Assembly: GCA_029856045.1 (NCBI GenBank)
Contig: JAHQWG010000048.1
Span: 1-64,000, forward strand
Reading direction: 5' to 3'
DNA: 64,000 bases
DNA from: Promethearchaeia archaeon
GTDB taxonomy: Archaea; Asgardarchaeota; Lokiarchaeia; Sigyniarchaeales; SOKP01
The notes beneath the pieces were generated by a model. That model ran no database searches. It had not been told where the DNA came from and saw only the letters and a list, made by a program, of their open reading frames with translations. Shown here one piece after another: positions 11,053 to 64,000 of this stretch. The position numbers and the translations under genes were made by a program. Numbering within the stretch: position 1 is the stretch's first letter; each line of letters opens with the position of its first letter.

Positions 11053-11113
11053 ATTTGTATAAATAAATTTAAAACGTGTATTATAAGTTAAAAGTATAAG
11101 ATTTAATATTTAG

Positions 11114-13105
11114 GTGAATATTATTCTAAGGCAAGTTTATATTTATAAAGAGGGTGAATTGATATATTCCTGTCAGTTTGGCAAGGCATTAACGCAAGAA
11201 GATTTTACTAGTTTGTTCAAACAACTACGTAAAGATGCTATGGCTGCACCAAGTGATAAGATTGAATATCATGATTATTATAAATATAGAATCACATACG
11301 CTACAGAAAAAAAATTAGATTTAATGTTTCTATTTGTAACCGGTTTAACTGATTCATCCAAAGATATTAAAACTGAATTGCTTAGATGTAAAAGGGAATT
11401 TCTGAATCTTTTTGGGGATATAATCAAAACTGAATTTGATTCTAAAACTTTTGAAGTATTTGACCCAACAATTGATGTAATTCATAAAAATTTACGCCCC
11501 AAAATTTCACTCGTAGGATTTTCTGGTGTTGGAAAGACAACAATAACTAGATTAATTAGGGCTGAAGAAATACCGATGGAACATATCCCTACTATAACTG
11601 GAGATATAGCAACTATAAAAATAGGGAAATTACACTTTCACTTATGGGATTTTGCAGGACAAGAACAGTTTAGCTATTTATGGAATAACTTTGTTAAAGG
11701 TAGTGACGCAGTCCTTCTCATTACAGATTCAACTTTAGAAAATATAGAAAAAAGTAGATTTTTCCTCGATTTAATAAAAGATGAAGCACCCCACGCACAT
11801 ACTGCAATAATTGGAAACAAACAAGATCTTTCAGATGCTCTTCCTGTAACAGAAATTGAGAATATTTTAGGTTTAAAAACTTATAAAATGATTGCAAATA
11901 AAAATGAAAATCGGGATAAAATGATTACAATAATTGCTGATATCCTTGAAATGAGTTCAGAAGTAAGCCCCTTATTGAAACCATTGATTGAGAGAGATAA
12001 ATTATTACAAGACGCTGAATTATCACTTAATGAAGGCAATTTCCAAAATTCTTTAACCTTATTTGAAAAAATTGCGGATTTATGTCTTGATTTAGGTGAT
12101 GATAGTTTAGGAAATGAATTTAATGAAAAAGCCCAGAAGATTAAAGAAATTTTAGTAAAGATGGAAACAACACCAGTTGAGATTGTTAAACCAAAGGAAG
12201 AAGGAGTTCAACCTGCATCGGTAAAATCAACATCACCTGAACCCAAAGTTGCTCCTAAACCGGCGATTCCTAAACCACCAGTAATAATAATACCAGATGC
12301 AGCTGAACCTAAAGCTGCTCCTAAACCGGCGATTCCTAAATCACCAGCAATAAAAAAACCAAGTGTACCAGAACCTAAAGCTGCTCCAAAACCAGCGATT
12401 CCTAAACCACCAGCAATAAAAAAACCAAGTGTACCAGAACCTAAAGCTGCTCCAAAACCAGCGATTCCTAAACCACCAACAATAAAAAAAACAACTGTAC
12501 CTGAATCCAAAGTTGCTCCAAAACCAACTTCACCTAAATCACAATCCACACAGCCAAAATTAACAATTAATCTCGCAGATTTTAAAATTAAACCCCGTCC
12601 AACAAATATCTTATCCGCAAAAACCACCGGACCTAAACAATCATTAACGGTCAGTCCGTTTAGTGCTATAAAACAAGAAGAAACTCAACCAAAACCATAC
12701 ACTACTAAACCCAAATCACCATATCAACAACCCTTGCCTGATTCTAAGAGACCATCTCCGCCAATGCAAATACCACAGCCACCCATCCCACCGAAAGCTC
12801 CCCCTCAAACCTCTATTCCAAAGCCTATGACTCAACCAACACCAGCTAAAACCAAACCCCCAATAACAATCATAAGTGACCAAGGAGGTACACAAAAAGA
12901 TGAACTTGAAAAAACTTTAATGGATTTAAAGATTAAATTTGCAAATATTTCTAAAATGGAACTCGACCTTGATATGAAAGAAATTTCAGGGGAAATAACC
13001 TCAGAAGAGTTTAATGAGAAATCACAAAAAATTAAAGCCATAAAAGAGAATATTTCAAAACAAATTGAAGATATTCAGAATCTGTTAAATAGTTTTAGCG
13101 CATAG
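11114..13105 (+). CDS. Longin-like domain / Arf-Ras-type small GTPase / proline-rich tail
   Basis: A 663-residue multidomain protein. Residues 1-105 ('QVYIYKEGELIYSCQFG' onward) resemble a longin domain, the fold of SNARE and adaptor N-termini. Residues 130-280 are a GTPase: P-loop 'GFSGVGKTT' (135-143), switch I threonine near 160, 'DFAGQE' (179-184) with the catalytic Gln, and 'NKQD' (235-238). A helical pair around 295-350 looks TPR-like. Residues ~360-590 are Pro/Lys/Ala-rich with tandem 22-residue repeats, like SH3 or profilin ligands. A C-terminal coiled coil closes the protein. No prenylation cysteine is present. The GTG at 11114 lies inside an AGGTGA Shine-Dalgarno-like sequence; ATT at 11123 is the alternative start. 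Confidence 0.82.
   Translation: MNIILRQVYIYKEGELIYSCQFGKALTQEDFTSLFKQLRKDAMAAPSDKIEYHDYYKYRITYATEKKLDLMFLFVTGLTDSSKDIKTELLRCKREFLNLFGDIIKTEFDSKTFEVFDPTIDVIHKNLRPKISLVGFSGVGKTTITRLIRAEEIPMEHIPTITGDIATIKIGKLHFHLWDFAGQEQFSYLWNNFVKGSDAVLLITDSTLENIEKSRFFLDLIKDEAPHAHTAIIGNKQDLSDALPVTEIENILGLKTYKMIANKNENRDKMITIIADILEMSSEVSPLLKPLIERDKLLQDAELSLNEGNFQNSLTLFEKIADLCLDLGDDSLGNEFNEKAQKIKEILVKMETTPVEIVKPKEEGVQPASVKSTSPEPKVAPKPAIPKPPVIIIPDAAEPKAAPKPAIPKSPAIKKPSVPEPKAAPKPAIPKPPAIKKPSVPEPKAAPKPAIPKPPTIKKTTVPESKVAPKPTSPKSQSTQPKLTINLADFKIKPRPTNILSAKTTGPKQSLTVSPFSAIKQEETQPKPYTTKPKSPYQQPLPDSKRPSPPMQIPQPPIPPKAPPQTSIPKPMTQPTPAKTKPPITIISDQGGTQKDELEKTLMDLKIKFANISKMELDLDMKEISGEITSEEFNEKSQKIKAIKENISKQIEDIQNLLNSFSA
12239..12568 (+). 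repeat. 66-bp tandem coding repeat (proline-rich linker)
   Basis: Four clear units of 66 bp start at 12239, 12305, 12371 and 12437; a fifth, more divergent copy starts at 12503. Each encodes 22 residues of the type EPKAAPKPAIPKPPAIKKPS followed by V-P. The two middle units are nearly identical at the DNA level, which points to recent slippage or unequal exchange. It is in frame within the GTPase gene, so it lengthens a flexible linker. Confidence 0.95.
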
Positions 13106-16516: not shown

Positions 16517-17491
16517 TTAAATTGCATAATTTCTACTTTTGGACCATTCAATATAATCCTTAAGCCCTGATTGAATATCATATTTTGGCTCAAATTTTAA
16601 AATTTTATTCGCTTTTTTAATATCCGCAAAACTATCTCGAATATCACCTGGTCTGGGATCCGTATGATCAACCCTTAAATGCTCTTTCCCGCATACTTCT
16701 TTCATAATAGCTGCAAGTTTATTTACTGTAATTGGAGAGCTCGCTCCTATATTGAACATCTCACCTGAAATATTCTTCGTTGCCCCGGCAAGCAAATTTG
16801 CATCTACCACATCTTTAATGTAAGTGAAATCCCGACGCTGCTCCCCATCTCCAAACACAATCGGATTTTCATTCCGGTATATCCGCCCCAGCCAAATCGG
16901 TATAACTCCGCTATACGTTGAGTCCTTCTGTCTCGGACCATAAACATTGAAATACCTTAACGCTACGGTGTTTAAACCATAAACCTTAAAATAGGCATAA
17001 AGATACTTCTCACACGCCAACTTTGCTACGCCATAAGGAGAAATTGGGATAAGATTCATATCCTCCCTTTTCGGTAAGGTCGGTGTATCCCCATAAACCG
17101 ATGAACTCGAGGCAAAAATGATTGCTTCTACGTCCCGAATCCTCGCAGCATTCAAAATATTGAGCGTGCCACCAACATTCACCTCATTGCAAGTAATTGG
17201 CATCTTGATAGATTGCGGAACACTCGTAAATGCAGCCTCATGATAAATGATATCAATATCCTCGCACACCTCCAATAAAAACCCAAAATCCCGAATATCA
17301 GCCTTGTGAAATGTGAAATTCGGATTTTGCAGCGCACCACCCAAATTTTCCATACGACCGTTGAATAAATTATCAAGCCCAATTACATGTGCTCCTTTCT
17401 CCAAGAGTGTATCGGTCAAATTGCTGCCGATAAACCCTGCAGCACCTGAAACTAAAATTTTTATCCCGTCTAAATCTAAAATGTAAATCAC
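16517..17491 (-). CDS. NAD-dependent UDP-sugar 4-epimerase-like enzyme (GalE/WbpP type)
   Basis: An extended SDR of 324 residues that interconverts nucleotide sugars using bound NAD. Landmarks are 'GAAGFIGSNLTD' (NAD loop), 'LDNLFNGR', 'ASSSSVYGDTP' with the catalytic Ser, 'SPYGVAKLACEKY' with Tyr-x3-Lys, 'RYFNVYGPRQ' and 'GDGEQRRDFTYIKDVV'. The sequence best fits UDP-glucose/UDP-GlcNAc 4-epimerase-like archaeal enzymes. The nominal GTG start lies in TTAGGTGA; an ATT six bases later (17482-17480) shares the spacing seen at three other genes and would leave only a few residues before the first strand. Substrate not determinable. Confidence 0.85.
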   Translation of the reverse strand: MIYILDLDGIKILVSGAAGFIGSNLTDTLLEKGAHVIGLDNLFNGRMENLGGALQNPNFTFHKADIRDFGFLLEVCEDIDIIYHEAAFTSVPQSIKMPITCNEVNVGGTLNILNAARIRDVEAIIFASSSSVYGDTPTLPKREDMNLIPISPYGVAKLACEKYLYAYFKVYGLNTVALRYFNVYGPRQKDSTYSGVIPIWLGRIYRNENPIVFGDGEQRRDFTYIKDVVDANLLAGATKNISGEMFNIGASSPITVNKLAAIMKEVCGKEHLRVDHTDPRPGDIRDSFADIKKANKILKFEPKYDIQSGLKDYIEWSKSRNYAI

Positions 17492-17536
17492 CTAATTGAA
17501 AAAATCATTGCTATTATTATAAATTTCCCTTTTTAA

Positions 17537-33491: not shown

Positions 33492-34001
33492 CTAATCCAT
33501 TGCGTATTTTTTCGTCCAGTTCTCTGCTTTCTTATCAAATTTCGATTTTTGTTTAAAATATTGCTCTCCTGCTTCATGATTTAAAGGATCGCCGGGATTA
33601 AAAAATGGTGGTTCCACATGCATCATTCCCTTCAATGCTTCGACAATATTTGTTAATGTTTTAGAAGGAGTCCACCCCGAAGCCCCAGTAGAGGCATCAA
33701 CCTTACCGACTAGATCGGGATTAATAAGATCAAGACAAATATTCAATTTTCCTGGTGGAATTGAAGAGTCGATATTAGGATGCCACATTAAAGTATGAGC
33801 ATATACATATGGAGGTGCAAAAGGATAGTTCTCGGGCATTTTTATCTCGAATAAAAATTTACCTCCTGAATACGGAATTCCTGGCTTTCCTATTATTGAA
33901 AGCCTAAGGTGGTCTATTGATCTTCCCCAAGGTTCGATAATAACGAATTGATTATCTTTAAATGCCTCAAGCGCCTCTGCATAATCAGTTTCTTCTCTAA
34001 T
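33492..34001 (-). CDS. Ubiquitin-conjugating enzyme E2 (UBC fold), start probably ATT
   Basis: A complete UBC domain of 169 residues when read from ATT at 34001-33999. It shows 'GIPYSGGKFLFEI', the Pro-rich 'PENYPFAPPYVY', 'HPNI' (about 74-77), the catalytic Cys89 in 'KLNICLDLI', 'GWTPSKTLTNIVEAL' and 'PGDPLNHEAG'. These are the standard E2 landmarks, at normal spacing. A short insertion after the Cys (about 95-108) is unusual. ATG at 33839 would remove the first two strands. Upstream, TTAGGTG is followed in frame by TAA, AAA and then ATT, so no ATG/GTG/TTG start exists for the full domain. It should take the ubiquitin-like protein from the E1 nearby. Confidence 0.88.
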   Translation of the reverse strand: MREETDYAEALEAFKDNQFVIIEPWGRSIDHLRLSIIGKPGIPYSGGKFLFEIKMPENYPFAPPYVYAHTLMWHPNIDSSIPPGKLNICLDLINPDLVGKVDASTGASGWTPSKTLTNIVEALKGMMHVEPPFFNPGDPLNHEAGEQYFKQKSKFDKKAENWTKKYAMD

Positions 34002-34173
34002 TTTTTACACCTAATAAGTTTAATTGTAATCTCAATTTAAAATTAAATTAAAAATAATTATGTTAAGTAATTTTATAATATTAGAATATAGTTAAAAATG
34101 TATTTAATATATAAACATGCTAATTTTTTTGCAAAATTTTCTAAATTCGGACCCTTACGCGAGTTAAATTGTC

Positions 34174-37683: not shown

Positions 37684-37815
37684 CCCCTGGTAGCTCAGTG
37701 GTAGTAGCGCACGGCTGTAGATTTTTATCGCGTATTGAGAAAAAGATCAATGAAAATACGTCAGCTAAAGCGAATAGATACCGTGTGGTCGCTGGTTCAA
37801 ATCCGGCCCAGGGGA
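37684..37815 (+). tRNA. tRNA-Tyr (anticodon GTA) with a 59-nt intron
   Basis: The acceptor stem CCCCTGG (37684-37690) pairs with CCAGGGG (37808-37814), with discriminator A. The anticodon stem CACGG (37710-37714) pairs with CCGTG (37781-37785). The loop CTGTAG holds GTA. The T arm is GCTGG/CCGGC around TTCAAAT. C1-G72 is the archaeal/eukaryal tyrosine identity pair. An intron of 59 nt (37721-37779) follows position 37, the usual place, and contains a CGTATT/AATACG helix. The D stem has one mismatch. CCA is not encoded. Confidence 0.93.
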
Positions 37816-37853
37816 CTTTCTATTTTTTTTTATTTTTAGAAAACTTAGAAAAT

Positions 37854-63494: not shown

Positions 63495-63590
63495 ACTATT
63501 ATATTTTAATTTTAAAATATTTATTATTTCTTAGAAAATTTTAAATTTCTAAGATTTTATTTATTTAATAAAATTATTATTCTTAAATAG

Positions 63591-63854
63591 GTGATAAAAA
63601 TTAATCTTGAATCTACTGTAAGTGATAAAGGATTAACCACAATACCAAAGGAGATCCGAAAAAAACTCAATATTAAAAAGGGAGATAAATTATATTGGAT
63701 TTTTAAAGAACAAGAAAGAACTGAATTAATTGTTATTAAAAAACCACTTAAATTTCTAAAAGGAAGATATGCTCAAAAGGATCTAACTTATGAGAAACTA
63801 GAACACAAAGCTGATGAACTAATTGAAAAAAAGGTGGAAAATAAATCCCGCTAA
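63591..63854 (+). CDS. AbrB/MazE/SpoVT-like antitoxin
   Basis: An 87-residue swapped-hairpin DNA-binding protein. 'STVSDKGLTTIPKEIRKKLNIKKGDKLYW' in pieces (about 8-36) is the AbrB signature with the conserved T-I-P-x-E-I-R and the L-x-I-x-x-G-D-K turn. The basic tail binds the toxin in VapBC-type pairs. The GTG start at 63591 is part of ATAGGTGAT; ATT at 63600, six bases after AGGTG, is the other candidate. The next gene overlaps its 3' end and looks like a PIN toxin, so it forms a toxin-antitoxin pair. Confidence 0.82.
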   Translation: MIKINLESTVSDKGLTTIPKEIRKKLNIKKGDKLYWIFKEQERTELIVIKKPLKFLKGRYAQKDLTYEKLEHKADELIEKKVENKSR

Positions 63855-64000
63855 TCGAATTAGATTTAATGATTGGATTAGTTTCTAAAACTGATAGATT
63901 TCATGAACTTTCAATAAAGATTTTTGATAAGATTAAAAAAAATTACATTAAAAATGTGTATATTCCATCTAGCGCATATTTAGAATATGAATTACTGCTA
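63845..64000 (+). CDS. PIN-domain (VapC-like) toxin, cut by the window end
   Basis: The first ~52 residues of a PIN-domain protein: 'IELDLMIGLVSKTDRFHELS' holds the first catalytic Asp of the family at the end of strand 1, followed by a helix and 'NVYIPSSAYLEYELLL', where the Ser and Glu fit the second strand and catalytic acid. It overlaps the antitoxin end. The frame is closed upstream at 63842-63844 and contains no ATG/GTG/TTG before the Asp, so ATC at 63845 (seven bases after GGTGG) is the probable start; ATG at 63869 would lose the Asp. Probably a tRNA/rRNA-cleaving toxin. Confidence 0.7.
   Translation, partial: MPLIELDLMIGLVSKTDRFHELSIKIFDKIKKNYIKNVYIPSSAYLEYELLL

Follow-up and report, generated by a model that had tools for sequence, protein, structure and literature searches.

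The first 64,000 nucleotides of contig JAHQWG010000048.1 from a Promethearchaeia archaeon (Lokiarchaeia), referred to here as the window, raise the question of whether an archaeal gene can use AUU as its start codon. The question is posed by a gene for a ubiquitin-conjugating enzyme (E2) on the minus strand, in which the motif AGGTG is separated by six bases from an in-frame ATT. An earlier note on this sequence had pointed to the same AGGTG-N6-ATT arrangement at three further genes, those of a longin-type GTPase, a NAD-dependent epimerase and an AbrB/MazE-like antitoxin, and re-reading of the sequence confirmed all four sites. Our analysis indicates that in Lokiarchaeia a limited number of particular genes very probably start at the near-cognate codons AUU, AUC, AUA and, once, ACG. 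The closest named relatives of the window genome (G000) are metagenome-assembled genomes of Candidatus Lokiarchaeota (Promethearchaeota); G004 and G016 denote related genomes.

The E2 reading frame opened by the ATT at 34001 (33492–34001, minus strand) matches Pfam UQ_con with an E-value of 7.5e-25 over residues 22–162, and its orthologues align from residue 1. The start codon occupies positions 33999–34001 and the AGGTG positions 34008–34012, the latter being complementary to the 3' end of 16S rRNA with a duplex energy of −6.3 kcal/mol. An in-frame TAA (34005–34007) stands directly after the GTG of this motif, as it also does in the orthologues L041 and L042, so that, as the note had argued, translation of E2 cannot start at this GTG.

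We compared this gene with 63 related loci from named genomes, which together with the window gave 62 distinct sequences. The start column contains ATG in 27 of them, ATT in 15, ATC in 10, TTG in 8 and GTG in 2, and no other codon. All ten Leu/Val codons in the column are TTG or GTG, although these two account for 11.8% of the Leu/Val codons in these genomes; the column is therefore one of initiator codons, not a site that merely varies among Ile, Leu and Val. In 9 of the 25 ATT/ATC genes, including that of the window, no ATG, GTG or TTG occurs in frame upstream as far as the preceding stop, and in nearly all the others the sole upstream canonical candidate is the GTG inside the AGGTG motif. 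Among the near-cognate orthologues, third codon positions take 72% of the differences in codons 2–13, while the upstream sequence is flat (30%). The E2 protein tree implies six or more changes of start type on well-supported branches. The start column, the upstream region and the third-position bias thus agree with the earlier proposal, and AUU is almost certainly the start codon of E2.

The longin-type GTPase (Arf/Ras/Roc domain; Pfam Arf, 6.3e-21; 30 orthologues) is encoded on the plus strand by the frame 11123–13105, with the ATT at 11123–11125 and AGGTGA at 11112–11117 (AGGTG at 11112–11116), the latter identified from the sequence, the orthologues and the pairing with 16S rRNA. Across 30 genomes its start column holds ATT in 18, ATA in 4, ATC and ACG in one each, and ATG in 6; two of the six ATG starts lie within the family of the window genome, and the four orthologues from outside the family all have ATG. 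Of the 24 genes with a near-cognate codon, 20 have no canonical start in frame further upstream, and AGGTGA itself usually creates an in-frame TGA nine bases 5' of the start. There is little doubt that translation of this gene begins at AUU, and the annotated GTG would then be part of the ribosome-binding sequence. The note had offered this reading for the epimerase and the antitoxin as well, for which it is likely and possible, respectively. Its restriction to AUU was too narrow, since AUC, AUA and, once, ACG occur in the same role.

The 16S rRNA of the host ends in GGATCACCTCCT, which is complementary to AGGTGATCC, and AGGTGA can therefore be regarded as a Shine–Dalgarno (SD) sequence, in accordance with the pairing given in the note. 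The median pairing energy with the 16S end was −9.7 kcal/mol for E2 genes with ATT/ATC, −4.0 kcal/mol for E2 genes with ATG and −2.7 kcal/mol for ATG genes genome-wide; the sequences are related, which inflates the p-values of this comparison. A ribosome-binding site at suitable spacing precedes the near-cognate starts, although the spacing is longer than usual in the gene discussed next. The constant six-base spacing that the note had assumed did not hold: in some E2 orthologues the GTG of the SD sequence lies 9 bases before the start codon and in others 10 bases, out of frame, with the ATT kept. Published work on Lokiarchaea describes SD sequences as rare there (PMC7531240, PMC12993045); the near-cognate-start genes form a class in which their use is clear.

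Following the note's pointer to the initiation factors, we found that the gene of aIF1, identified by Pfam SUI1 (G000:C27:190734-191059, locus L304; set L298–L327), is itself near-cognate-started across the family. No canonical start is present in 30 of the 36 aIF1 sequences of the window's family. The common layout is AAGGTTGTGA-N9, in which one or two stops (TGA, TAA) stand in frame, followed by ATT (once ATC)-AAA-GAC-GAC-...-ATTTGTCC, which encodes the ICPxC motif, and no ATG occurs nearby in any frame in the family genes. ATA is found at the aIF1 start in the own genus and in genome G003, as well as in the other Asgard families f2, f7 and f12, and G133 (family f22) has ATA, unlike its sisters with ATG. 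The 17 sequences read from family f8 have CTG (9) or GTG (8) and never ATG, and several other Asgard families have ATG. Since, according to work on S. solfataricus (PMC6237735), aIF1 makes initiation complexes on non-AUG mRNA less stable, the start of its gene in this family is a conserved codon of the type against which the factor discriminates.

Second aIF1 paralogues were seen at G001:C222:16454-16779 and G149:C133:10086-10177. They have stronger, different SD sequences (GAGGTGA, GGGAGGTGA), with ATT codons about 6–9 bases 3' of them.

Near-cognate starts are gene-specific and are estimated to concern about 1–2% of genes. A syntenic block was compared in about 20 genomes: of its 14 gene families that have five or more orthologues, 2 use them as a rule, one further family does so in one species, and most others keep ATG. 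A scan of 2.03 Mb from three genomes (G000, 831 kb; G004, 800 kb; G016, 400 kb) counted 37 ATH codons that lie at SD distance behind a strong SD sequence and have no canonical start nearby, against 6 in a shifted window, the list of 37 including false cases. With a loose SD criterion, ATT and ATA showed only a weak excess at SD distance. An MglA-like GTPase (G000:C36:152493) has a mixed start column over 33 genomes (ATG 16, TTG 9, ATT 5, GTG 2, ATC 1), followed by an invariant Pro.

The position of the start, the lack of alternatives, the conservation, the repeated exchange with AUG, the strong SD sequence and the near-cognate start of aIF1 are all features of the sequences themselves, and the mechanism that we build on them would run as follows. 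A strong SD sequence (GGUGA/AGGUG) would position the ribosome at the near-cognate codon, where the ordinary initiator tRNA with the anticodon CAU presumably initiates with methionine despite the mismatch, and the output of such genes would be low. If aIF1 rejects near-cognate starts, then abundant aIF1 would reduce the output of its own gene and of the other AUU genes, and feedback would be the most likely purpose of such starts. We give this feedback of aIF1 on itself and on other near-cognate genes a nearly even chance. An Asgard initiation-fidelity circuit, in which aIF1 (AUU/AUC/AUA, or CUG/GUG in another family) sets the level of a near-cognate regulon that includes ubiquitin and small-GTPase machinery, is proposed with the same reserve, its probability being just short of one half.

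The purpose, as distinct from the start codon, has a strong rival: the starts may be near-neutral weak starts, tolerated where little protein is needed, with no regulation by aIF1. The switching of E2 and the MglA-like GTPase among ATG, TTG, GTG and ATT/ATC fits such tolerance, as does the general pairing of weak starts with strong SD sequences in prokaryotes (PMC5622118). However, the longin-GTPase and aIF1 retain near-cognate starts in nearly all members of the family, even though a single mutation would give ATG, which for the longin-GTPase suggests selection, and aIF1 is the very factor that screens start codons. We consider near-neutrality a real possibility, if somewhat below an even chance.

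Several observations weigh against near-cognate starts or against the role of the SD sequence at them. An in-frame GTG within the SD sequence of the longin-GTPase is kept only in the window's own genus, the window gene included, and the own-genus aIF1 genes with ATA likewise have an in-frame GTG inside the SD sequence; the G003 gene with ATA has none. The aIF1 spacing (GTGA-N9-ATT) exceeds the usual one. In the genome scan other codons at SD distance were also increased (118 versus 55 in the shifted window; Fisher p 0.001), so the excess of ATH is modest. Among six phylogenetically independent pairs of E2 genes, with a threshold of −6, about four differed in the same direction as the SD medians and none in the opposite one, which is not significant. 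Finally, AGGTG-N6-ATT occurs 143 times in the 3.34-Mb genome versus 163 for the pattern read backwards, and most neighbouring genes keep ATG, so that the signal which the note called recurrent is not a genome-wide one. The raw motif shows no excess because most copies sit within genes. In the window, 10 of the 68 AGGTG copies on both strands have ATT at N6, compared with a mean of 3.1 over the other 15 spacings, and 4 of these 10 stand at gene starts. The motif by itself proves nothing, and our evidence was therefore taken from orthologous starts and not from motif counts.

The conventional annotation, in which the GTG inside AGGTG is the true start and ATT is codon 4, draws on the fact that GTG is a normal archaeal start codon and is in frame with ATT in the longin-GTPase, epimerase and AbrB genes of the window, as the note had implied. 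The TAA directly after the GTG in E2, several E2 orthologues with the GTG one base out of frame and the ATT retained, and the in-frame TGA at −9 after the same SD sequence in most longin-GTPase orthologues speak against it. Moreover, the window's genome shows no enrichment of GTG at SD distance (5 observed, 4.7 expected). This annotation is refuted for E2 and for most longin-GTPase and aIF1 genes, and as a general account it is very unlikely; for the epimerase and AbrB the GTG stays the alternative start.

For the epimerase (frame 16517–17482, minus strand), AUU at 17480–17482 behind AGGTGA at 17488–17493 (AGGTG at 17493–17489), found in the sequence and in the strong-SD scan, is the likely start, with GTG at 17491 as the alternative. 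The arrangement TAG-GTG-N6-ATT is kept in three same-genus genomes while the two intervening codons vary, and an ATG stands near the place of the ATT in other orthologues. The antitoxin (Pfam MazE_antitoxin, 1.9e-9; plus strand) possibly starts at the AUU at 63600–63602, with the frame running to 63854 and AGGTGA at 63589–63594 (AGGTG at 63589–63593); the alternative is GTG at 63591. Its start region GTG-ATA-AAA-ATT (AGGTGATAAAAATT) is identical in G004, the single other genome compared. In the window's positions 63591–64000 the antitoxin gene is closely trailed by another open frame, which fits a toxin–antitoxin pair at the end of the window.

Further candidates were seen in single genomes or pairs. 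The gene of TFE (TFIIE-alpha; G000:C27:277210-277785) has an apparent ATC start behind TTAGTGATTTCTT in one genome, and orthologues of it are present in relatives. Two more candidates come from the window's own genome only: an AMP-binding enzyme with ATT and a CbiQ-type transporter subunit with ATC. A noisy pairwise scan of reciprocal best hits yielded two more cases. In G016, a roadblock-like protein encoded 5' of the longin-GTPase (L247, G016:C10:369862-370365) has an ATT start behind GAGGAGGT and about 100 codons without a canonical start, most of its orthologues having ATG. In the orthologous pair G004:C10:268722-269258 and G016:C10:12131-12667 (both minus strand, 60% identical), both genes have ATA behind AGGAAGTGATTA, with no ATG within 13 codons.

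Archaeal mRNA introns and recoding exist, and splicing, programmed frameshifting or AUU-to-AUG editing could in principle make the first codon conventional or bypass it. In dozens of sequences, however, the SD sequence lies directly 5' of the ATT with stops in between, no ATG is available nearby in any frame in the family aIF1 genes, and editing would not need a column that exchanges freely among ATG, TTG, ATT and ATC. We therefore consider such processing, of which recoding has been reviewed (PMC8211752), highly improbable. A dedicated second initiator tRNA reading AUU and AUC, for example one with the anticodon GAU, was suggested by the occurrence of ATT and ATC but never ATA in E2. It was dropped in view of the ATA and ACG starts of the longin-GTPase and the ATA and CTG starts of aIF1, and because the single initiator tRNA found among the 25 tRNA genes recovered, an incomplete set, carries CAU; the tRNA-Ile with GAU that was recovered is elongator-like (G1–C72), and a second initiator is hardly to be expected. 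A start at the next canonical codon downstream, as automatic gene callers would choose (the first ATG of E2, at 33839, costs 54 residues), has a negligible chance, since the codons of E2 that would become noncoding show the strong third-position bias, such starts would lie 19–71 codons inside E2, and aIF1 would lose its conserved ICPxC zinc motif and the MglA-like GTPase its P-loop.

The gene of the initiator tRNA-Met (CAU; G000:C27:220557-220656) contains an intron of about 21 bases. Intron-bearing tRNAs are numerous in this genome, for example tRNA-Tyr at 37684–37816 of the window.

One case that the near-cognate start of aIF1 closely resembles is bacterial infC, the gene of IF3, which, according to the studies cited in PMC9845219 (Butler 1987; Brombach & Pon 1987), has a conserved AUU start and autocontrol. 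The likeness is an AUU-type start in the gene of a factor that screens start codons. However, aIF1 belongs to the SUI1 family without homology to IF3, so the claim is that it works like infC and not that it is one; E2 and GTPases share the start type in Lokiarchaeia, and for aIF1 autocontrol is a proposal. Eukaryotic eIF1, a homologous SUI1 factor, also has a suboptimal start of its own and limits its synthesis through an AUG in poor context (Ivanov 2010, as cited in PMC6237735), whereas in Lokiarchaeia the codon itself is non-AUG and is placed by an archaeal SD sequence with no Kozak context. With GUG and UUG starts in prokaryotes the Lokiarchaeial genes share the coupling of a weaker codon to a stronger SD sequence, but an AUG-to-AUU switch was seen once in 61,358 AUG starts (PMC5622118), whereas ATT, ATC and ATA are recurrent here and conserved across a clade. 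Chloroplasts have conserved non-AUG starts in particular genes, with translational control proposed (PMC9845219), in an organelle of bacterial descent and with different codons and genes. Our literature search on AUU and other near-cognate or non-AUG starts in Lokiarchaea, Asgard archaea and archaea at large, which left most subscription papers and all preprints outside its scope, returned no report of the present finding. Non-AUG initiation as such is known; what seems to be new is that an Asgard clade uses it in a conserved way, aIF1 included.

Gene callers restricted to ATG, GTG and TTG truncate or miss such genes, E2 losing its first 54 residues and aIF1 possibly being cut or lost, and the proteins affected include some that are used in arguments on the origin of eukaryotes. 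If our reading is correct, gene expression in the archaea nearest to eukaryotes includes, as a stable and conserved component, starts that are neither AUG nor NTG. The homologue of eIF1 would then have been poorly started already in Asgard archaea, as IF3 is in bacteria, making the origin of fidelity control testable, and if the circuit is true, IF3, eIF1 and aIF1 would each be self-controlled through a poor start of their own in all three domains.
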